NCBI GenBank assembly: GCA_903868795.1
Contig: CAIPWR010000109.1
Coordinates: 1-40,873 of the forward strand
From: an uncultured Spartobacteria bacterium
Lineage (GTDB): Bacteria; Verrucomicrobiota; Verrucomicrobiia; Chthoniobacterales; UBA6821
Direction: 5' to 3'
DNA: 40,873 nt
Of this stretch, positions 7,785 through 40,699 are shown piece by piece. The position numbers and the translations under genes were made by a program. How positions within the stretch are numbered: the first letter of the stretch is position 1; each line of letters opens with the position of its first letter. The notes under the pieces were generated by a model, which had not been told where the DNA came from, made no database searches, and was given only the letters and a program-made list of their open reading frames with translations.

Positions 7785-8743
7785 TCACCCAACTTTGGAA
7801 GCATAAAGATCTCTGCGCTCTCGCGGATCACACGCCTGAGGAGTTGCTCACGATCCTCGACACAGCAATGGCCTTCAAGGGGGTGGGGGAGCGCAATCTC
7901 AAGAAAGTCCCCGCTCTTCGCGGGAAGACGCTGGTGAATTTTTTCATCGAACCGAGCACACGGACCCGTATTTCCTTCGAACTTGCCGCGATGCGACTGA
8001 GTGCCGACGTGGTCAACATCTCCGCCTCCGCTTCCAGTTTGGAGAAAGGAGAAACCCTTCTCGACACAGCCCGTAATCTGGAGGCCCTCCGTGCCGATCT
8101 CATCGTCATCAGGCACAAGTCCGCCGGCAGCGCACGCTTCCTGGCGGATCGACTCGATGCCTCCATCATCAATGCCGGCGATGGCGCGCACGAGCATCCC
8201 ACCCAGGGACTTTTGGATGCCTTCACGATTCGCGAGAAGCTCGGTCGCATCGAGGGAGTCCGCGTGGCGATCGTCGGTGATATTCTTTTCAGCCGCGTGG
8301 CTCGCTCCAATATCCAACTGCTCACGAAGCTCGGCGCTGAGGTGACGCTGGTTGGCCCCTCCACACTCGTTCCGGCAACGTTTACCTGCCTTGGAGTCAA
8401 GGTGGCCCATAGCATTGACGAGGTTCTGGAACAGGTGGATGTCATCAACCTCCTGCGCATCCAGCACGAGCGTCAGCGAAAAGAATATTTCCCAGGTGTT
8501 GGGGAGTACACCTCGCGGTTCGGCCTCACAAAAAAACGGGCCGCCCGGATCAACCCTGAGTGCCTGATCATGCACCCCGGGCCTATGAACCGCGGAGTCG
8601 AGATCGACAGTGATGTGGCGGATGGGAGGGGGAGCGTGATTCTCGATCAGGTGACCAACGGTCTCGCCGTTCGCATGGCCGTCCTTTACCTTTGCTCAGG
8701 CGGAGCCCCCTTTGCTCCAGCTGCTTCCAATACACTTTCATGA
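7781..8743 (+). CDS. pyrB: aspartate carbamoyltransferase catalytic subunit
   Basis: Condenses carbamoyl phosphate with aspartate, the second step of UMP synthesis. The 320-residue length is typical. The carbamoyl phosphate site S59-T-R-T-R63 and the HPTQ motif (139-142) are intact, as is the late [11 protein letters not shown] segment. That ending resembles the PyrB class that works with PyrR or PyrC rather than with a PyrI regulatory chain, and no pyrI is present. Both ends overlap neighbours by 4 bases (pyrR and pyrC), showing a tightly coupled operon. Carbamoyl phosphate could come from the CarA-type gene starting at the right window edge. Confidence 0.96.
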
Positions 8744-10038
8744 ACACTTCACTGCACATCAAGGGGGGCCGAATCATTGATCCGGCCAATGGAATTGACC
8801 GAATCGGAGATCTCTTTGTTAGGGATGGCCTCATTGTCGATTCGCTTTCTAAGAATGAAAAGGATGTCGAGGTTATCGATGCGAGCGGCAAGGTGGTCTC
8901 GCCCGGTCTCATTGACATCCATGTCCACTTCCGTGAACCCGGCCAATCACACAAGGAGACGATCGAGACCGGTGCACGATGTGCTGCCGCCGGAGGTTTC
9001 ACCACGGTGGTTTGCATGCCGAACACGTCGCCCGTCGCTGACAGTCCCGCGACAATTGCCTGGATTCAGGAGCGCGCCGCCTCCACGGCCTGTGTGAACG
9101 TTTTTTGCACGGGAGCCATCACTAGGGGACTTGCCGGCGAAGAGATGGCTCCAATCGGAGCACTTGCTGCAGCGGGAGTTGTCGCACTCACTGATGATGG
9201 GCGTTGTGTACAGAACCATGGGGTGATGCGCCGTGCCGTCGAGTATGCCCGCCAGTATGGATTGCCCATCATGGATCATTGCCAAGAAGCCACACTCAGC
9301 TCTGACGGAGTCATGAACGAGGGAGAGTGGAGTACCCGTCTCGGTCTTCCGGGATGGCCCGCCATCGCGGAGGATCTCATCGTCGCCAGGAATATCCTGC
9401 TTGCCGAAGAGACGGGGCATCCCATTCACTGCCAGCACATCAGCTCGGCACGCAGTGTCCGTCTGCTCCGCGAGGCCCGGCGTCGGGGTGTTCCGATCAC
9501 TGCCGAGGCATGCCCTCATCACATTGCTCTCACCGATGGTGATTTGAAGACATTCGATACGAACTTCAAGATGAATCCTCCCCTGCGTACGCAGGCCGAT
9601 ATCGATGAAATCATTGCCGGCATAGCGGACGGGACCATCACCATCCTCGCCAGTGATCATGCCCCGCATGCCACCTATGAGAAGGAAGTGGAGTTTGATC
9701 GTGCACCCTTCGGTATTCTAGGGTTGGAAACCGAGCTGGCCCTCTTTCTGGAGATCCTGCTCCATCAGAGCAAGGCGCTCACGCTGCCGCAGATCCTAGG
9801 AATGCTGACAATCAACCCTGCCAAATTCTTGCGTCTCGATCGTGGGACTCTTTCCGTCGGAGCTCCTGCTGATATCACGATCTTGGATCCGGATCACTCA
9901 TGGACCGTTGATAAGAACGCTTCGGCATCACTCTCACGGAACACTCCTTTCCATGGTCACTCCCTGCGTGGAAGAGCCCTGCGAACGATCGTGGGAGGAA
10001 AGACAGTCTGGGATCTGGAGGCCGGATTCAGAAACTGA
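8740..10038 (+). CDS. pyrC: dihydroorotase (class I)
   Basis: Cyclises carbamoyl aspartate to dihydroorotate. The metal motif H61-V-H63-F-R65-EPG, the MDHCQE and CQHISS histidine segments and the SDHAPH motif identify an amidohydrolase of the PyrC class I type. The reading frame is open upstream to an ATG at 8692, but the ATG at 8740 overlaps the pyrB TGA and begins with the typical beta strand ([15 protein letters not shown]), so I use it; this gives 432 residues. It is the last gene of pyrRBC and is followed by a small inverted-repeat element that may end transcription. Confidence 0.95.
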
Positions 10039-17794: not shown

Positions 17795-20700
17795 TTATCC
17801 GATGTGAACGTGATATTTGGCAAAATCAGTTAAACTCAAATTATAGAGTGCTCCGATTCCAGCAAAATTCGTAGCAGTTTGAAATTGGTTATTATTATAA
17901 GTAAGTCCACCGGAATCATTGCCTCCACCCATTTCAGTGGCGCTGTTGATGCCCGTTGCATAGAGATTAGAGTATAAAACTCCGATTTGAGAGCCTACAT
18001 CGTGGTAAACGGCACCGAGATTGCTAGGCACAAGGTTAACAATATCTGTTGAATCAAGGGTAATTCCTTTGACCTCGGCGACGAGATTAACCTTGTTGTG
18101 TCCGCTACTATCGGTAGTTAATTTGTATATGCCAAAGTCGTTTTTATTTGGAATTGTAGAGCCCCTAAGATTATTTAAACCAAACGTAGTGGGCGCACTT
18201 CCAATCAGATAGGTTCCAGCCCCAAGATTGATGGTAGCACCAGTGTTAGTTCCTGATTGAGCATTTCCATTATTAATTGCATCAACGGATGATGTAGTTG
18301 CATCAATAACTGCATAATCTTCATCTGTTGCGGCGGCGGTTAATCCTAAAATCTTATAATAAGTACCGTCTGAACTACTACTGACAACTCCCACACTATT
18401 ACTTGTCGACCCTGTATAATTCGATCCGATCAGGAAGGTATCGGCTGTGCCGGTAACCGACTGAATGGTTTTGGTTGGTGGAATGAGCACAGCCCCGGTA
18501 GCATTACCAACAAGGCTGTCGAGGCCGATGCCAGTTCCAGTGGTGCCACCGACCCCACCACCATCGAGCGTGGCTCCGTATTCGTTTCCGATTAGGATAT
18601 TGCTGCCAACCTCTGTGCCTGTGAATCCAGCTCCTGAACCCAATGTCGCATTTCCAGTGGAGGTGCTGTTACCGGTTGCAAAGCGTGCGATTGGATCACC
18701 TTTTTGAAGGGTAATATTGGAAATACTCTGTCCACCGGAGGAATCACCGGATGTGCTGAGGATGTAACCGAGAGTCGCAGTCGTACCTCCTGGTAGGCTT
18801 GACCAGTAGACATCCGATCCGGTGAAAATCACAGTGTCATTGCCGCCGCCTCCAGAAATAACATCTGCATTGGGCGTTCCTGCTTGAGCAGGGGCGTAAT
18901 TATCTGTGTAGGTGTTGCCCGTTACAACGCCATTGGTAAATTTTAAAACTCCTCCAGAACTGACATAGAAAACATCATTGCCCGCGGCTCCTATCATGGA
19001 ATCTGCTCCAGCCCCTCCATCGAGCGTGGATGAAGCGGTCGCAATCAGGGTGTCTGAGTTTCCGAGGAAATTGTAGACGAATCCGCCGAGTCTTCCGTTC
19101 TGTGTCCAGTATTGACTTGGGTCGGCATTCCCCGGACCACCGGTGACTGCATTGCTCGGCGTGGGATCGGTGTCGCGATAGATGCTCACTGAGTTGGGCC
19201 CATTTAACGCATAATCAGCCAATGCTCCTGCGATGCTGTCCATGCCGGTCGCAGTTCCACCGATCAGGACGTCCCCTCCGCCGATTCCCGCGATACTGTC
19301 CCTACCGGTGGAGCCAACCAGTGTATTCTTACCACCGGTGGCATTCACATCATAGATGAAGTTATCGAGGCGGTTACCCTCGCCGAAATTCCGTGATCCA
19401 TCCAGCAGAAGTTCATCGACAAACATTCCCTGAGAGACGACTTGATCGCTGAGCTTGATGGCGCTCAGCCTGGAGACGATGAGATTATGCTGCCCTCCGT
19501 TGAGGCTGACGCCAGTAGTACCAATCCCAGCGGGGGTGCTCGGTGCAACATTCGAATAATTTACAGGGGTCTCGTTGCCGTACTTGATGCAGAGGTCAAA
19601 TCCGTTCGGGCCATTGGTAACGACTCCGTTGGAAAAGGTCGTGTCCCCATTGGAGACAAAGAAGGTGTCGCTTCCGATGCCTCCGACCATGGTGTGAAGA
19701 CCAGGATAGGTGACGCCGCCAGCGGTGTAGGAGGAGCCATCGCCATTGCCGATCTGCTGGGTGACGAAGAGGTCATTCCCGTTCTGGCCATCCATGTAGA
19801 CGGGGTAGCGATCCGCGAGTAAGGAATCGGGTTGCGTCGGAACCGGGATGGTACCGTAAGGATTGTTCGTCAGGATCGGGGCATTGCTATCATATCCGAC
19901 AAGCGCGCCGCCAAAGAGTGACTCCGCCGGCATGAACGCCCAGAGGACATCGTTACTGTTGCTCCCCTGGAGGGTGACGGGGGTGCCTGTTACTAGGCCC
20001 GTGTCAGGATCGGTTGTAGTCGGTAGAGTGAGTTGCTGGGCCGTGACACGGAAGTCGTAGCTCTGGCCAGAGGGCAGGGTGGGTAGTCCGTCTACGGTTA
20101 GGGAAGGATTCTGTGCAGTTCCTGAGAGGTCCTGCGACGTGCCGTTCACGTAGGTTTTCCAAGGGCCGAGAGTTCCACTGCCGTCATCCGTACGGTAGTA
20201 GACGGAATAACCCACCACGGTGCCGCCAGTCGTCGGTGCTGCCCAAGTGAGGGTGGTTTCCACAGCTCCGGAAGGATTGCTGTGATCGGGAATAATAGGA
20301 CCTACCTGCAGGGTGTCGAATCCCGATGGGAGGCTGCTGCCGTCATAGTTATATTCGTACTGCTGCCCCTCGGCGGTGCCATACTGCACATCAAGTCGGG
20401 TGGCATTAGGAACGGTGATTGAAAGGTTGCCCCCGGAGTATCCATCCGATGAATTGGAGTTCGGCAGGCCGTTACCAAAGCCGAGGAAGGTCGCCGGATC
20501 CGTCTGGCCTGAGTTGGCAGGGAGTGTCGGATTATTCGGGTCGATGTTCGGAAGATCAGGCGCCTGTTTGGTGACCAAGAGCGTGGCACGGTTGATATTA
20601 TTCGCGATGGAGTGGAGGTCGACCGTGGAGAGCAGTTCATTGCTTCCGGCCGCGGCGACCACAACATCGGCCTGACTGTGAACCACGAAAGTATCTCCGG

Positions 20701-23700
20701 CAGCGTTGCCGATGAGTGTGTTCGAACCGCTCGAACCGCCCAGACCATCGTTGTATCCGGGACCTCCGTCGAGGTAACTGTTGGCACCGTTTGCAACGAG
20801 AGAGTTATTGCCAGCTACGCCGATCACCCCGTTGATAAAGGATTGATCACGGGTGTCATAGGGGGCTGCGGCGTAGAGGTCGGGATTGGCATAAGTGCTG
20901 TTCACATAGCCGTAGAGGGAGGTGTTGGCGCCGTTGCCAACCAGAGTGTTGTCCCCCCCCATGCCCAGCATCAAGGCGTTGGCCGATGCTGAAGTCATGG
21001 AGTTATCGAGGGCATTCCCCACACCATATGCAGCTGAACCGAGCAGGTTGAAATATTGCAGGTTGTAGAAGGAGGTGAGGTCTGCTGATGCGAAGGAAAT
21101 TGATTTGGTGATCGAAGGAGATCCATCCGGCAGGGTGGGGGCAAACTGATTGAACTGAGTCGACTGAATCGGATCAAAGTTGACATAGGTATTCACGATT
21201 CCAACCTCGGGCGTCGTCGCGATGGGAGCAGGATTCGGAGGAATGATCTGACCCGAGACAGGATCACGCTCCAAGGAGTAGGGATTCAGAATCCTCGTAT
21301 TGCGATTGCGAACAACAAAATAGTTCAGGCCTCCATCAGCCTGCAGGGTCGAGACTCCCAAGCCACCATCGAGGGTGCTGTTCCCGACTCCGGAGAGGAT
21401 GAGATTATTTCCCGATCCTCCGATCAGGCTGTTGTTGCCATCACCTCCAACGATGGTTGCGTTTCCATTGCCTGCGAGGAGAGTGTCATTGCCTGACCCC
21501 GACTGGAGGAACTGGTTGCCTGATCCCTTGGATGCATCAAAAAGGACGGAGGGCAGATAAGGAACGAGATTGCCGTTCTGATCAAGGGTGGGAAGCGCGA
21601 CAAAGGTGTCGGATCCCACGCCGCCAATGATGGTCTGGATACCAATCGGCGTGGCATTCTGTCCGATCTGGATCAGGTTGTTACCATTGGCTGTCTTGAT
21701 GACTTGTGCTGTGCGGGCCCCGACATTAGCAAAGGAGTTGTCAGTGAGTTGGACGCCGTTCGTCGTAAACTGGATGGTGCTTCCACTCTGTAGTGTGGAG
21801 AGATTCTGAATCGTCGGCAGGAGAGTATCGCCGGGGAGGTTGTTAAGGATGTAGGTATTGGTACCGGGTCCGCCAACGAGGGTGTTCTGGGCTCCGATGA
21901 GCGAAGCGGTTCCGGAGTTGTTGAACATTCCGGAGACGATGGTGTTGTTGGCAACGACATGGGAGTAGAACGAAATGCCGGAGACTTTGTTCCCGTAGGA
22001 GTCGGTGAACGTGATGGACGAACTGAGGAGGGAGTCGGGCGCAGTCGAGATGGCTCCGGAAACGAATTCCCCGGTGCCCCCCACGACCAGATAATCCCCT
22101 TGGGTTCCGATGTAGGTGAGGGGGTTGGACTGCTGGGCCTGCAAAGCCTGGACATCGAGAGCGAGCTCGTTGGGCAGGCCTCGGTATTGCTCGTAGATAC
22201 CATTCGCTGAATTTGAAAGATTAAGCACCTGCTGGAGAGCTGTGGCGCCCTCCGCAGCGGTTGCATTCTGTCCGCCGCTAACGCTTCCAATAATGGAGAT
22301 CCCATTGAGATAACCGGTGACAAGGGTCCCCTGGCCGACAAGCGAAGAGGTCGGTTTGCTAAGCAGCAAGGTCACGGTGGCAGGTGTGCTACCCACGGCG
22401 GGATTCACCGTGACTCCCGTGATCATTGTGCCCGGAGCCAATCCATTTCCCGACACATACTGCCCCACGGCAAATCCGACGGAACCGCTGGCGCCAGCCG
22501 GTGTCGCCAATTTGATGGAGTTGGAGCCTTTGTTGGTAACGGCAAGGACATTGGCGGCCACTCCCGCCGTGATGGTGTCGGAGTCGACCCCCGACCCACC
22601 AATGATCGTGGTGATGCCACTACCCTGAAGGGATCCGACCGAGTTAACCGCGCTAATCAGGCTGGTGCCACCGGCAAGCGAGAGAACCTCCACGCCGGAG
22701 ATCCCGTTGAATGTTTTATAATCAAGAGCTGCGGGACGGGTCATGGCGATCGTATCCGTCCCTGCACCACCAGTAATCGAACCCACATTGGAGTTTTGCA
22801 GGATAAGCAGGTCGTTGCCTCCTCCGCCATTGATGGTGTCATAACCCTGCTGGCTTCCCACCAGTGTATCGTTACCGGCATCGCTTCCGATGAGACTTGT
22901 CCGTGAGGAGGAGAGGGAGGCGCTTAGGTAAGCCGAGGCAGAGGCGGCAAGCGATGGTGTAGTGCCGAATCCCGCTGTGCTGAGCGTATCGCTGTTCGGT
23001 CCGGCAATCAGGCTTTGAACTCCGGCGCGTTGTGCATTCTGCCCAAGGATCATCTGAACTGCAGGGGTGCCTTGAGTGCCAAGATCAATGACAGATCCGA
23101 TACTGGAAGTGGCGGGGCGGGCAGTTTTGGCGGAGGATGCGAGACTAAAAATGGAGTCCTGGATGGTGATTGCCGTGGCACTTGCGACGCCGAGGGTGTT
23201 GGAGGCAGATGAGAGCGTTGAGAGAGAAAGCGTATCGGAAGCAAAGGCTGCCGCCTGTGCCTGGGAGGTGATGAGCAGGAGGTTCTGGTGCGATCCGCCA
23301 ACGATGGAATCCTTGCCCAATCCCGCAACGAGGGTATTGGCACCGGAACCGCCAACCAGAGTGTTATGCTGCAATGAGGTGGATGATCCGGACTTAAGGA
23401 AGTTCGACCCCGTTCCGCCGACCAGGATGTCGCTGCCGACTCCACCGAGCAATGTCGCGGGGCCGCTCACGGCAATCAGGCTGTCGTTGCCCAAGCCGGC
23501 AACAAGAGAACTGGAGGATCCTCCTCCGAGGAGGGTGTTCCCTCCATTGGCAGCAGAACCGGAGCGCAGGGTGTTCGTTCCTGATCCGGCACGAAGAGTG
23601 GATTTGCCGATGCCGCCAACCAGGGAGTTCACGCCGCCGCCACCAATCAGGCTTTGATTGCCGCTACCAGCGTAGAGGAGGTTGTTTCCCGATCCACCGA

Positions 23701-24523
23701 CGAGAGTTGCCGCGCCATTGGCGGCCACCATGGTGCTGTTGCCAGATCCGCCCTTGAAGAAATCAGTCTGGGTTCCCGTCCCACCACGGAACCAGTTGTT
23801 ACCGGATCCACCGACCATGCTGGTGGTGGTGGCTGTCCCTGCGACAAGCGTCGTGGAGGCAGCTCCAGCCTGGAGGTAGTTGTAGTTCTGAGCGTTTCCG
23901 GTAAGAACCTGCGTGCCTCCTTGGAGCGTTCCTATGAGCCCATGGATGCCTGACGGCATGGTAATAGCGGAGGATCCAGTATGGAGCGTGTCGCTTGAAT
24001 TGCTGGAACCACCATTAGACGGAGGCGCGGGCGGCAAGGTTGGTCCTCTTGGAATAATGCATTCGATGGCAACAAGTGACCCCTCATGCGTGATCACGGC
24101 GGAGTCATCCTCGTTCAGGATGGAGGTGATTTCCTCTTCGGTGAGTTCTACGCCGCGCACGGTGGCTGAGAAGAGAGCGCCCTCGTCACCGGGGGTCTCC
24201 AAAGTATTCAGGAGGGCATCGATGTGGTGTCCGATCTCTTCAAGGAGTGCCTCGGTCTGCAGATCCGAGGGGCAGACATCGGAGAGATAGATGGTCTCGG
24301 TCTCACGAGAATACGCGGCGATCGCCGGGGAGAGGATTTCTGCAGAAAGAATCTTGATCCGAGGAAGCCAGGAAAGATCGTTATTCCGGATCCTGTTTAG
24401 GAGGGAAGCACTGGTCTCTGAAGTGGCACCGAAGATCTCCTTGAGATCAGAGGCGGCATCAGGTCGGTCAGACCATGAAGAGAGGAATGAGAGAACTTCC
24501 GTGGAGTAGGTCGGATTCAACAT
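17795..24523 (-). CDS. giant RTX-like repeat protein with N-terminal zincin-like domain
   Basis: 2242 residues from the ATG at 24523; a TTG nine codons upstream is the alternative. There is no N-terminal signal peptide, as expected for type I secretion. Residues about 55-145 form a domain containing LLEEIGHHIDALL and TPGDEGALFSATVRGVEL, like the N-terminal unit I recall from cyanobacterial RTX proteins. Long tracts of degenerate calcium-binding nonapeptides follow (GGSGN-, GGTG-, GGAG-type, often Asn where Asp is usual), about residues 180-430, 540-600, 975-1060, 1170-1280 and again toward the C-terminus. A fibronectin type III-like domain (about 1410-1495) holds LTWAAPTTGGTVVGYSVYYR. The last roughly 230 residues are non-repetitive. 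Likely a surface or secreted adhesin-like protein. The gene's 3' end is clearly AT-richer than its body. No T1SS genes are in view. Confidence 0.85.
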   Translation of the reverse strand: MLNPTYSTEVLSFLSSWSDRPDAASDLKEIFGATSETSASLLNRIRNNDLSWLPRIKILSAEILSPAIAAYSRETETIYLSDVCPSDLQTEALLEEIGHHIDALLNTLETPGDEGALFSATVRGVELTEEEITSILNEDDSAVITHEGSLVAIECIIPRGPTLPPAPPSNGGSSNSSDTLHTGSSAITMPSGIHGLIGTLQGGTQVLTGNAQNYNYLQAGAASTTLVAGTATTTSMVGGSGNNWFRGGTGTQTDFFKGGSGNSTMVAANGAATLVGGSGNNLLYAGSGNQSLIGGGGVNSLVGGIGKSTLRAGSGTNTLRSGSAANGGNTLLGGGSSSSLVAGLGNDSLIAVSGPATLLGGVGSDILVGGTGSNFLKSGSSTSLQHNTLVGGSGANTLVAGLGKDSIVGGSHQNLLLITSQAQAAAFASDTLSLSTLSSASNTLGVASATAITIQDSIFSLASSAKTARPATSSIGSVIDLGTQGTPAVQMILGQNAQRAGVQSLIAGPNSDTLSTAGFGTTPSLAASASAYLSASLSSSRTSLIGSDAGNDTLVGSQQGYDTINGGGGNDLLILQNSNVGSITGGAGTDTIAMTRPAALDYKTFNGISGVEVLSLAGGTSLISAVNSVGSLQGSGITTIIGGSGVDSDTITAGVAANVLAVTNKGSNSIKLATPAGASGSVGFAVGQYVSGNGLAPGTMITGVTVNPAVGSTPATVTLLLSKPTSSLVGQGTLVTGYLNGISIIGSVSGGQNATAAEGATALQQVLNLSNSANGIYEQYRGLPNELALDVQALQAQQSNPLTYIGTQGDYLVVGGTGEFVSGAISTAPDSLLSSSITFTDSYGNKVSGISFYSHVVANNTIVSGMFNNSGTASLIGAQNTLVGGPGTNTYILNNLPGDTLLPTIQNLSTLQSGSTIQFTTNGVQLTDNSFANVGARTAQVIKTANGNNLIQIGQNATPIGIQTIIGGVGSDTFVALPTLDQNGNLVPYLPSVLFDASKGSGNQFLQSGSGNDTLLAGNGNATIVGGDGNNSLIGGSGNNLILSGVGNSTLDGGLGVSTLQADGGLNYFVVRNRNTRILNPYSLERDPVSGQIIPPNPAPIATTPEVGIVNTYVNFDPIQSTQFNQFAPTLPDGSPSITKSISFASADLTSFYNLQYFNLLGSAAYGVGNALDNSMTSASANALMLGMGGDNTLVGNGANTSLYGYVNSTYANPDLYAAAPYDTRDQSFINGVIGVAGNNSLVANGANSYLDGGPGYNDGLGGSSGSNTLIGNAAGDTFVVHSQADVVVAAAGSNELLSTVDLHSIANNINRATLLVTKQAPDLPNIDPNNPTLPANSGQTDPATFLGFGNGLPNSNSSDGYSGGNLSITVPNATRLDVQYGTAEGQQYEYNYDGSSLPSGFDTLQVGPIIPDHSNPSGAVETTLTWAAPTTGGTVVGYSVYYRTDDGSGTLGPWKTYVNGTSQDLSGTAQNPSLTVDGLPTLPSGQSYDFRVTAQQLTLPTTTDPDTGLVTGTPVTLQGSNSNDVLWAFMPAESLFGGALVGYDSNAPILTNNPYGTIPVPTQPDSLLADRYPVYMDGQNGNDLFVTQQIGNGDGSSYTAGGVTYPGLHTMVGGIGSDTFFVSNGDTTFSNGVVTNGPNGFDLCIKYGNETPVNYSNVAPSTPAGIGTTGVSLNGGQHNLIVSRLSAIKLSDQVVSQGMFVDELLLDGSRNFGEGNRLDNFIYDVNATGGKNTLVGSTGRDSIAGIGGGDVLIGGTATGMDSIAGALADYALNGPNSVSIYRDTDPTPSNAVTGGPGNADPSQYWTQNGRLGGFVYNFLGNSDTLIATASSTLDGGAGADSMIGAAGNDVFYVSSGGVLKFTNGVVTGNTYTDNYAPAQAGTPNADVISGGGGNDTVIFTGSDVYWSSLPGGTTATLGYILSTSGDSSGGQSISNITLQKGDPIARFATGNSTSTGNATLGSGAGFTGTEVGSNILIGNEYGATLDGGGVGGTTGTGIGLDSLVGNATGAVLIPPTKTIQSVTGTADTFLIGSNYTGSTSNSVGVVSSSSDGTYYKILGLTAAATDEDYAVIDATTSSVDAINNGNAQSGTNTGATINLGAGTYLIGSAPTTFGLNNLRGSTIPNKNDFGIYKLTTDSSGHNKVNLVAEVKGITLDSTDIVNLVPSNLGAVYHDVGSQIGVLYSNLYATGINSATEMGGGNDSGGLTYNNNQFQTATNFAGIGALYNLSLTDFAKYHVHIG

Positions 24524-24768
24524 AAGGGGAAAGTTTTTAGGGGAGATCAAGGGAGATATGAGGAGAGGGGAAACTTTTCAATAAAGTAGGGAGAAAGTCC
24601 ATGCTGTCAAATGAAGATTCTTCTTTGGAGCGAATCAATATTTCAGAGATTTCTGGGACCACGGGAGGCCCGTTCATAAAATCTTCATTTTCCGGGACGG
24701 TTTCTTCACAAATCAATCAATCCGCTCCGGTTTTTTGCGGTTCCCGGGAGGTGGATTTCTTAAAGATA

Positions 24769-37755: not shown

Positions 37756-39321
37756 ATGACAACGATGCCAACAGTTCTTCTCTACGATACCACGCTGCGC
37801 GACGGAACTCAGGGTGAGGGAATCTCTTTCAGTCTGCTGGATAAAATACGGATTGCTCAGAAACTTGCCGGATTTGGTATGGATTACATTGAGGGCGGGT
37901 GGCCGGGATCGAACCCCAAGGATCTTGCGTTTTTTACCGAGGCCCGGAAGCACGATTTCGGGAAGACCAAACTGGCGGCCTTTGGTAGTACGCGCCGTGC
38001 GGGAATTGCTGCTGCTTCGGATCCTCAATTGGCCCAACTGCTGGAGGCTGAGACTCCTGTCGTGACGATCTTCGGGAAGAGCTGGAAGCTCCAGGTTGAG
38101 AAAGTCCTGGGGGTTCCCCATGAGGAGAATCAAGCCATGATACGCGACAGCGTCGCCTATCTTAAGTCCCACGGGCGCGAGGTCTTCTACGATGCCGAGC
38201 ATTTCTTCGACGGGTACAAGGATGATGCAGACTTTGCCATGGCGACACTCGCTGCAGCTGACGAGGGGGGCGCCGATATGCTCGTCCTCTGCGACACCAA
38301 CGGTGGTACGATGCCTGATGAGATCTCCGAGATCACTGCGGCTGTTGAGAATCGCTTTCCCGGTAAGGTCGGGATCCACACGCATAATGATTGCGGCATG
38401 GGAGCCGCCAATGCCCTAGCCGCTGTCCGCTCCGGTGCCTTGCAGATCCAGGGGACGATGAACGGCTACGGAGAGCGCACCGGCAACTGTAACCTGACGA
38501 CCGTGATTCCATGCCTGCAACTTAAGATGGGAATACCTGTCGTTTCGGATCTCACGCGCCTTCGCGAGGTCTCGCTCTTTGTTGATGAGTTGGCTAACTG
38601 CCATCCCGATGTGCGTGCTCCATTCGTGGGCAGCACCGCCTTTGCTCACAAGGGGGGAATGCACGTGAATGCCGTGGCCAAGACCGCTGCAGCCTACGAG
38701 CATATCAAGCCTGAGTCTGTTGGTAATCATCAGAACATTCTTGTTTCCGAGCTCTCCGGACGGAGCAATATTCTGCTGAAGGCTGAGGAACTGGGGCTTC
38801 AGCTTTCCAAGAGTGACCCCGCCGTGCTTCGGGTACTTGAGAAAATCAAGGCCTTGGAATCCGAAGGATTTGAATTCGAGGCGGCTGATGCTTCCCTCGA
38901 TTTGCTTATTCGGAAGGAACTGGGCCTTCATGCGCCGCTCTTCGAGCTGCAGGGATATCATTGCAGTTTTCGTCGTGATGCCGCCGGATCCTCCACAACC
39001 TGCGAGGCAACCGTTACCGTCCGTAAGGGCACCGAACTACTGATCATGACCGCCGATGGTGATGGTCCTGTGAACGCCCTGGATGCCGCTCTTCGTAAAG
39101 CCCTGCAACAACTCCACCCTTGGATCGCGGGGATCACTCTTTCCGACTACAAAGTCCGTATCGTTGATGGGGGACGCGGGACGGCGGCGCGCACCCGGGT
39201 CCATATTCTTTCGAGCGAAGGATCGGAGTCCTGGGGAACGGTGGGTGTTTCCGACAATATCATCGAGGCAAGTTGGATGGCACTAGTCGACTCTCTCGAG
39301 TTTCGCGCCTCGAAACGTTAA
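37756..39321 (+). CDS. cimA: citramalate synthase
   Basis: A DRE-TIM metallolyase that condenses pyruvate and acetyl-CoA to (R)-citramalate, the threonine-independent route to isoleucine. YDTTLRDGTQGEG (10-22) holds the catalytic Arg-Asp, and GIHTHNDCGMGAANALAAV holds the metal histidines. The 521-residue length, the insertion of about 30 residues after SWKLQVEKVLGVPHEEN, and the C-terminal regulatory domain fit the longer CimA type (TIGR00977) rather than LeuA or homocitrate synthase. It lies 24 bp after the LOG gene on the same strand. The C-terminal domain suggests feedback control by isoleucine, a family property. Confidence 0.93.
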   Translation: MTTMPTVLLYDTTLRDGTQGEGISFSLLDKIRIAQKLAGFGMDYIEGGWPGSNPKDLAFFTEARKHDFGKTKLAAFGSTRRAGIAAASDPQLAQLLEAETPVVTIFGKSWKLQVEKVLGVPHEENQAMIRDSVAYLKSHGREVFYDAEHFFDGYKDDADFAMATLAAADEGGADMLVLCDTNGGTMPDEISEITAAVENRFPGKVGIHTHNDCGMGAANALAAVRSGALQIQGTMNGYGERTGNCNLTTVIPCLQLKMGIPVVSDLTRLREVSLFVDELANCHPDVRAPFVGSTAFAHKGGMHVNAVAKTAAAYEHIKPESVGNHQNILVSELSGRSNILLKAEELGLQLSKSDPAVLRVLEKIKALESEGFEFEAADASLDLLIRKELGLHAPLFELQGYHCSFRRDAAGSSTTCEATVTVRKGTELLIMTADGDGPVNALDAALRKALQQLHPWIAGITLSDYKVRIVDGGRGTAARTRVHILSSEGSESWGTVGVSDNIIEASWMALVDSLEFRASKR

Positions 39322-39343
39322 AATATTAAGGATTTCGGCGCAT

Positions 39344-39407
39344 TGCGTCGTCAAAGCTCCCTTGCCGTAGATTGAGCTACGGCTGCGGTCTCATTCTTTC
39401 CAACGCA
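39344..39407. repeat. REP-like palindromic element after cimA
   Basis: A perfect 7-bp stem GCCGTAG (39364-39370) and CTACGGC (39377-39383) with loop ATTGAG is nested in an outer pairing TGCGT (39344-39348) with ACGCA (39403-39407). A T-run follows at 39423. The layout is that of an interspersed REP/BIME-type repeat and may also stop cimA transcription. I recall similar palindromes in verrucomicrobial genomes, but no second copy is in this window. Confidence 0.5.
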
Positions 39408-39499
39408 TCCGAACTTCTTGATGTTTTTTACCCAAAATTTGCATTAGCAACCATTCAGTCGGAATGTTGACAAGTTAAAATCGTTAGAAAGGTTGAAGC

Positions 39500-39718
39500 G
39501 TTACAACGTGGAGATGAGGGTACATCGGACTATCGAACGCAAGTGTTCGCATGATGAACATGAGGTGCGTAGAAACGCATCTTAGTCATGCCGCAGGTAG
39601 TCCGAACTAGCTCGAATGGGTGATCTGGGAGGATCGCCAGACAAAGAGCATCAGAGGGGGGCATTCCCGATTCATGATGATAGGATTAAGTCCTTTTTAA
39701 CCCTTTTAACGTCGTAAC
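39500..39718 (+). ncRNA. candidate structured RNA of about 219 nt, family unknown
   Basis: Nested pairings I can trace by hand: an outer closing stem GTTACAACGT (39500-39509) with ACGTCGTAAC (39709-39718), 9 of 10 paired; a hairpin GATG/CATC (39513-39526); a multi-branch closed by GGACTA (39527-39532) with TAGTCC (39598-39603). That branch holds hairpin CGAAC/GTTCG (534-549) and a stem CATGA/TCATG (550-590) capped by AGGTGCGT/ACGCATCT with loop AGAA. Then come TCTGG/CCAGA (39624-39641), CATCA/TGATG (39649-39679) around a G/C-rich hairpin, and AGGA/TCCT plus TTTTT (39682-39698), which looks terminator-like. No ORF covers it. It does not match tmRNA, RNase P, 6S, SRP RNA or a group II intron domain V as I know them. 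The strand is chosen by the U-run and loop types. Confidence 0.55.
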
Positions 39719-39820
39719 AATTTTAACGATCGCTGAGATCACCATCCCGGTGAAGTACCCAAAACTGTTGACTGCACGCTATCGCATCATCCGGTTTTAA
39801 ATGAAGATCCCACGCATCCT

Positions 39821-40699
39821 CTAGTGACTACTGTGTGGGTCTGCTGAGTTTGAAGACGAGCCGGTGTGCTTGTGCTTTTTCTTCGAGTGATGCGTCGATC
39901 CCGAGGAGGTCTCCGAGTGACGGGAGTGAGCGGACTTGGAGGGGATCTTTTTCTTCTGGGAATGGAAAAAGAGGCGATGAAAGGACCAGGGGTTTTCGGC
40001 AGTCGGCAGCAGAAAGTGTGCCGCCGGGGTCGGAACATTATGCCCACCGCCATGGAGTTTGCGGTGCTCCATGATGAAATCAGTGGGGACCCAGTAGCTG
40101 ATCAGGTCACGGGTTCCCCCTGCATGATTCACCCCGATGCTCAGATCCTTGTGCATCTCAAAGTGAAGGTGAGGGGGGTACATTCCGTGATTATTTCCGA
40201 TCGTACCGATCTGCTGACCTCTTGTTACCTGCTGTCCTTCCCTCACCATGATCCGGTCGAGATGTCCGTAGAGTGAGTCCGTGAAGTGAATTTTTCGGTT
40301 CTCGATCCAAGCGTGTCTGATCACCACGACATTTCCCCAGTCAGCACGGATATCACGCGCCAGAACAACGAGGCCATTCCCGATGGAATGCACGGGATGG
40401 CCGAATGCCTGCCCTTTTCCTCCGGCGATGACCCAATCCTCTCCAAGATGACCATGGGGTCGGAATCCGCGAGACTTGCAAAAACCTAACCCGTCGGGGG
40501 GGGCCACAGGGAAGTCAAATCCATCCGCTGTCATCGCGGATGTCTCTGGTAAAATCTCTACCGATGGGAAGGAGTGGAATAAACGCGCGAAAAATCCTTG
40601 AGGAGCTATGACGGAATCATCACTCCGCCCTTGAGTTATCAAGAGGGGAAAAATCAGAGCCCAAAAAAAGAGGGCAAAGAATGGAGATCTTCTAAACAC
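39821..40699 (-). CDS. M23-family metallopeptidase with His/Lys/Ser-rich tail
   Basis: A LytM-type endopeptidase that would cleave peptidoglycan cross-links in the periplasm. A signal peptide (about residues 8-25) precedes the catalytic domain. Metal ligands are H84 and D88 (GHLGEDW), with the HLH pair at 177-179 (YPPHLHFEMHK); YGHL (144-147) supplies another conserved His. The domain covers about residues 60-215. The C-terminal 50 residues are Lys, Ser and His-rich (HHSKKKHKHTGSSSNSADPH), like the tail of the carboxypeptidase at 2354-3283. It is convergent with cimA across the non-coding region. Confidence 0.88.
   Translation of the reverse strand: MFRRSPFFALFFWALIFPLLITQGRSDDSVIAPQGFFARLFHSFPSVEILPETSAMTADGFDFPVAPPDGLGFCKSRGFRPHGHLGEDWVIAGGKGQAFGHPVHSIGNGLVVLARDIRADWGNVVVIRHAWIENRKIHFTDSLYGHLDRIMVREGQQVTRGQQIGTIGNNHGMYPPHLHFEMHKDLSIGVNHAGGTRDLISYWVPTDFIMEHRKLHGGGHNVPTPAAHFLLPTAENPWSFHRLFFHSQKKKIPSKSAHSRHSETSSGSTHHSKKKHKHTGSSSNSADPHSSH

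Follow-up and report, generated by a model that had tools for sequence, protein, structure and literature searches.

What occupies the intergenic stretch between a cimA-like gene and an M23 peptidase gene in an uncultured lake-dwelling Spartobacteria bacterium, and is its strong folding that of an RNA gene? The window analysed here is the whole 40,873-nt contig, in which an earlier note had singled out positions 39500-39718 as an unassigned, highly foldable RNA. The upstream neighbour is the cimA-like gene (37756-39321, + strand), encoding HMGL-like and LeuA dimerisation domains, and the convergent neighbour is the M23 peptidase gene (39821-40699, - strand). The strong fold was borne out, with -83 kcal/mol for 39500-39718 against -58.0 +/- 4.6 in dinucleotide shuffles (z -5.47, 0/200 shuffles as low); the reverse strand gave a z of -3.33. 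The computed fold also includes the proposed long-range closing stem (GUUACAACGU/ACGUCGUAAC). As had been stated, the region lacks an ORF, the list having no entry of 60 aa or longer there, and it matched no known RNA class: no Rfam family was found for it at the gathering threshold, and E-value mode returned only chance matches to eukaryotic snoRNAs (E 1.8 and 7.8). The small hairpin and U-run described at the end of the region did not register as a terminator, as scans of 39320-39830 returned 0 terminator sites and 0 promoter sites. Elsewhere in the window, a 2251-aa ORF on the minus strand (17795-24550) with glycine-rich GGxGxDxL-like repeats resembles, by eye, RTX-type calcium-binding repeat proteins.

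The region is not unique to this site. In the same genome, assembled as 2.77 Mb in 169 contigs, 39480-39730 is present in full three times, the window copy included; about 15 further copies are short and lack the middle, so that their first ~80 bases adjoin the last ~80. When the alignment of these copies was extended outward, the full element was found to run from CCC to GGG, and a multi-copy alignment, a scan for terminal inverted repeats (TIRs) and a test for target-site duplications (TSDs) place its 365-bp long form at 39431-39795 on the + strand. This repeat unit replaces the boundaries 39500-39718. Its TIRs are imperfect, CCCAAAATTTGCATTAGC on the left and CCGGATGATGCGATAGC on the right (reverse-complemented, degraded). 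A 20-bp TIR pattern with 2 mismatches allowed matched 66 times in the genome, and its backwards control gave 0 matches in any of 16 genomes of the genus. Exact 5-bp AT-rich direct duplications were present in 22/38 paired elements, compared with a mean of 3.7 and a maximum of 11 when left and right flanks were shuffled, where each pairing took the nearest right end and a few pairings at clustered sites are possibly wrong. At the window copy, the duplications are TTTTA (39426-39430) and, by the TSD test, TTTAA (39796-39800), which are identical at 4/5 positions.

An autonomous relative with the same ends was identified in the genus. In G006:C53 (L277), a 430-aa transposase (PF13701, E 7e-42) lies between TIRs at 7868-7887 and 9241-9260 that match the ends of the window element, and a second, partial IS1380-family element is found in G009. 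IS1380-family elements of the genus were seen in L267 (1519-2796) as well as in L277. For many TIRs the contig ends about 100-140 bp away, and many of those in the genome of the window are likewise close to contig ends, which suggests that complete IS1380 elements broke the assemblies. The element at 39431-39795 shares its TIRs with an autonomous IS1380 element, has a short TSD, is short and multi-copy, and contains no transposase gene. Judged by its sequence, it is a non-autonomous IS1380-type MITE, and we infer that a transposase mobilised it in trans.

We consider it very probable that the locus is a transposase-moved IS1380-type MITE, lying between two convergent genes and carrying a second repeat, module C, as a passenger. 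An IS1380-family transposase would have moved the MITE in trans by cut-and-paste at AT-rich 5-mers, with insertion between the cimA-like and M23 peptidase genes, and the long form would carry C as the source of the excess folding. The guess that a mobile element had left the sequence behind was a good one, given the IS1380-type ends, the 5-bp duplications and the transposase elsewhere in the genus. Two observations weigh against the MITE reading: the genome itself yielded no intact transposase, only weak PF13701 fragments, and the TSD at the window is imperfect.

Module C is a ~90-nt multi-hairpin dispersed repeat at 39556-39648 (+ strand), recognised by covariance-model scores, by comparison of short and long copies and by compensatory changes in its family. 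It is present in the three long MITE copies, whereas the short copies read AGATGAAC/GGCATAAGAGG in its place. The excess fold energy goes with C, because one MITE copy without it folded no better than chance (z -0.46) compared with the z of -5.47 for 39500-39718; C alone gave -3.5. The first helix, P1 (39562-39583), is of the AAG.UGCGU/ACGCA.CUU type, with double changes in 5/8 pairs in the family. The closing helix P2, taken from the family alignments, pairs GUC (39585-39587) with GAC (39640-39642) and encloses P3 (39590-39598), P4 (39601-39616) and P5 (39618-39638). In the window copy, P1 has a G7.U28 wobble, P4 two A.C mismatches and P5 one G.G mismatch. This copy scores 91.6 bits with model R1 and 50.8 bits with R2, below intact copies, as expected of a decaying passenger. 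Given its three stem mismatches and the lack of any promoter-like or terminator-like site, C is most likely a passenger in the window. Against this, C is often more conserved than flanking genes at orthologous sites, so it is possibly functional in general. It was probably inserted into the long form before that form spread, the alternative being its loss from the short forms.

This nesting also bears on the fold built by hand. The multi-branch proposed for 39527-39603 gave way to a covariation-supported fold at ~39562-39642, and the MFE stem in that interval joins MITE sequence to C sequence. The 3' half of the stem lies inside C, and copies without C therefore cannot form it. It is very unlikely that 39500-39718 encodes an independent orphan ncRNA of ~219 nt: its z of -5.47 speaks for such a gene, but the stretch cuts across nested repeats, the repetitive unit is 39431-39795, most copies of the outer repeat lack the structured middle, neither promoter nor terminator was found, and the hand-built fold differs from the covarying one.

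The closing stem, for its part, is formed by the inner arms, termed B. The left arm (39474-39535, + strand, ends approximate) is an array of GTTRRAA units, GTTAAAAT CGTTAGAAA GGTTGAAGC GTTACAACG, and makes up the 5' half of the stem, while the right arm (39687-39742, + strand, ends approximate), CTTTTTAACCCTTTTAACGTCGTAACAATTTTAACGATC, makes up the 3' half. B-like arms also occur alone in G014 (L284, L286, L287 and L294). Inverted GTTRRAA arms with units spaced 8-10 bp apart are a dispersed repeat in the genus and are most abundant in G014.

Module C also occurs alone elsewhere, outside the MITE, which allowed its fold to be examined across a family. In an alignment of 17 short-type sequences, the five-helix structure paired 90.1% of cells compared with 24-40% for slid-structure controls, although the structure was hand-drawn from the same 17 sequences and is hence favoured over its slid versions. 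Double changes were present in 16/28 pairs, and the covariation score was reached by 0/500 shuffles. The long-type alignment of 40 copies was 94.8% paired, with double changes in 21/31 pairs and 129 double-changed cells versus 34.8 in shuffles. An Rfam search with a consensus-type copy matched no family. C is a structured repeat family absent from Rfam, its fold conserved by compensatory change. The proposal of a new structured RNA thus survives for the part formed by C, as a structure-conserving family, and fails for the whole ~219 nt as a unit.

Such covariation might be taken as the mark of a new ncRNA class, in which C is a trans- or cis-acting structured RNA made from the + strand and borne by the MITE in this case. 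Conservation at orthologous sites would fit this reading, as would the tandem G.A of P3 (conserved in 38/40 long-type copies), the GGGA (GNRA-type) loops on the + strand, and the better folding of the + strand than of the minus strand in 39/40 copies. Nevertheless, we regard it as rather unlikely, as the upstream flanks of C are variable and show no conserved promoter, no Rfam family corresponds to it, and flanking transcription runs mostly along the minus strand. The earlier note had also taken a G-U wobble as a sign of RNA, but the C family has G.T and A.C cells in equal measure (23 vs 21), where an excess of G.U would be expected from selection acting on an RNA strand. The separate idea that C is an RNA gene driven by a promoter of its own was rejected, as none was seen in the flanks of the copies or in 39320-39830.

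The distribution of C was examined with covariance models. It was found in 16/16 genomes of one Spartobacteria genus, with 1-28 copies each, these numbers being model hits that include weak or partial matches, and none was found with strict filters in other genera among 388 genomes of the phylum. By flank similarity, 135 copies fall into 84 site clusters. With the first copy taken per cluster, and with genes called by a home-made codon-score method and not a published gene finder, the gene flanking C on the 3' side is directed toward it at 50/68 independent sites and away from it at 18 (p 1.3e-4). The minus strand of C therefore usually follows closely on a stop codon. In several cases a + oriented gene terminates within C. 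In L051, L074, L077, L092, L098, L107, L109 and L113, C supplies the last codons and a TAG stop, giving tails like GEKVPGKAA*, and L092 (2003-2320; G014:C6) has three tandem copies with a period of ~103 bp behind a gene that ends within C. No gene constantly adjoining C was noticed when its neighbours were read by eye, and no clean target duplication was defined for it. GTAG precedes several copies, not most.

The most likely role of the C family, put forward tentatively, is that of a transcript 3'-end element. Genes that run into C end shortly before it, and on their strand P1 is followed by CCUUUUC. In intact copies, the minus strand shows P1 (a GC hairpin) and then CCTTTTC, and the window copy gives no terminator site. 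However, just four U follow P1, it is the + strand, not the usually transcribed one, that folds better in 39/40 copies, and in one group of viral contigs C is placed beyond a separate terminator-like hairpin.

At orthologous sites, C in many cases matches or exceeds its neighbouring genes in conservation, and modules are swapped between orthologous copies; for example, L104 and L137 are identical except for one 20-nt module. This conservation could reflect either selection or gene conversion between copies. A further reading is that biased mutation, through template switching in hairpins and gene conversion between copies, perfected the fold without functional selection. Such block swaps and the equal numbers of G.T and A.C cells would be accounted for in this way, but we think it improbable given that unpaired positions and the tandem GA are conserved, that C is biased in its orientation relative to genes, and that it persists in viral genomes.

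C was found in twelve IMG/VR contigs, which form four groups by sequence, two of them carrying terminase genes. In the terL group (L297, L298, L300 and L303), with terminase, portal and head protease genes, C lies directly behind terL, and the intergenic region contains further hairpin modules also present in bacterial C copies. The contigs outside this group are L299, L301 and L302; L319-L321 and L323; and L322. One group has a methyltransferase gene and phage-family genes of unknown function, and another matched nothing, its viral nature resting on IMG/VR. At the position behind terL, C is missing from phages whose terL is 74% identical. Searches of named phage records for C gave no match, searches of plasmid records gave only partial chance matches (E 0.3 or worse), and a looser pattern and a gapped pattern both found no match in viral sequences.

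This scatter raises the possibility, which we hold with considerable doubt, that C is a mobile element recognised as folded single-stranded DNA, as REP and IS200-like elements are, by an enzyme lost or unsampled in most genomes. Its 84 site clusters, its 1-28 copies per genome, its absence from some members of long/short MITE pairs, its presence in four viral groups and its absence behind terL in a relative with 74% identity are consistent with this reading, as are the equal G.T and A.C counts. DNA hairpins, too, are stabilised by C(GNA)G triloops and tandem GA, which would fit the same reading. On the other hand, Y1_Tnp/RAYT genes were found in 2/16 genomes and in none of those with 28 and 16 copies, no clean TSD was defined for C, and no constant neighbour gene was noticed. 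Overall, C may be a new mobile structured nucleic acid of ~100 nt, with five helices and a tandem G.A, found in one genus and in viruses; this is a tentative proposal, in which it would insert at gene 3' ends and be kept there either by a transcript-end effect or by an unknown enzyme that recognises folded ssDNA.

For the window itself, the preferred reading stays that of an IS1380-type MITE with C as its passenger, and the locus is an example of how a MITE can be mistaken for an orphan ncRNA. The work also uncovers a structure-conserving repeat family missing from Rfam, and it is this family, rather than the partly decayed window copy, that deserves further study. If C is functional, it offers an example that can be tested, in which a short structured sequence spreads through one genus and into viral genomes while compensatory changes keep its fold. 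Furthermore, because the other genera sampled gave no C, a viral contig that carries it may thereby reveal its host.

Several known systems share features with these elements. Like REP/BIME sequences mobilised by RAYT, which include GTAG and CGTC palindromes, the GTAG repeats being reported from Verrucomicrobia (PMC3733652), C consists of dispersed extragenic palindromes that are near gene 3' ends and also inside gene ends, but at ~90-110 nt with five covarying helices it differs from a 20-40 bp hairpin. RAYT-driven REP was rejected for C, with Y1_Tnp (IS200-type transposase) missing from 14/16 genomes of the genus. Non-autonomous IS200/IS605 elements and TnpB guide RNAs likewise have strand-specific hairpins, are mobile and occur in hosts and viruses; a TnpB guide RNA was rejected, as the TnpB zinc ribbon (PF07282) was found in 0/16 genomes. 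CsrB/RsmZ-type sponge RNAs resemble C in having multiple hairpins whose loops contain GGA, and a CsrA sponge was rejected with CsrA in 0/16 genomes. The GTTRRAA units of B resemble the GTTRRRY of integron attC, a likeness of motif alone. The closest comparison for the window element is with IS1380-family MITEs. Its interior differs in being unrelated to the transposase gene and in holding the inverted arms of GTTRRAA units, to which the long form adds module C, but its ends are common to the element of the genus that encodes a PF13701 transposase, and its AT-rich 5-bp target duplications are like the 5-bp duplication of IS1247, a member of the IS1380 family (PMC3281130, table 2).
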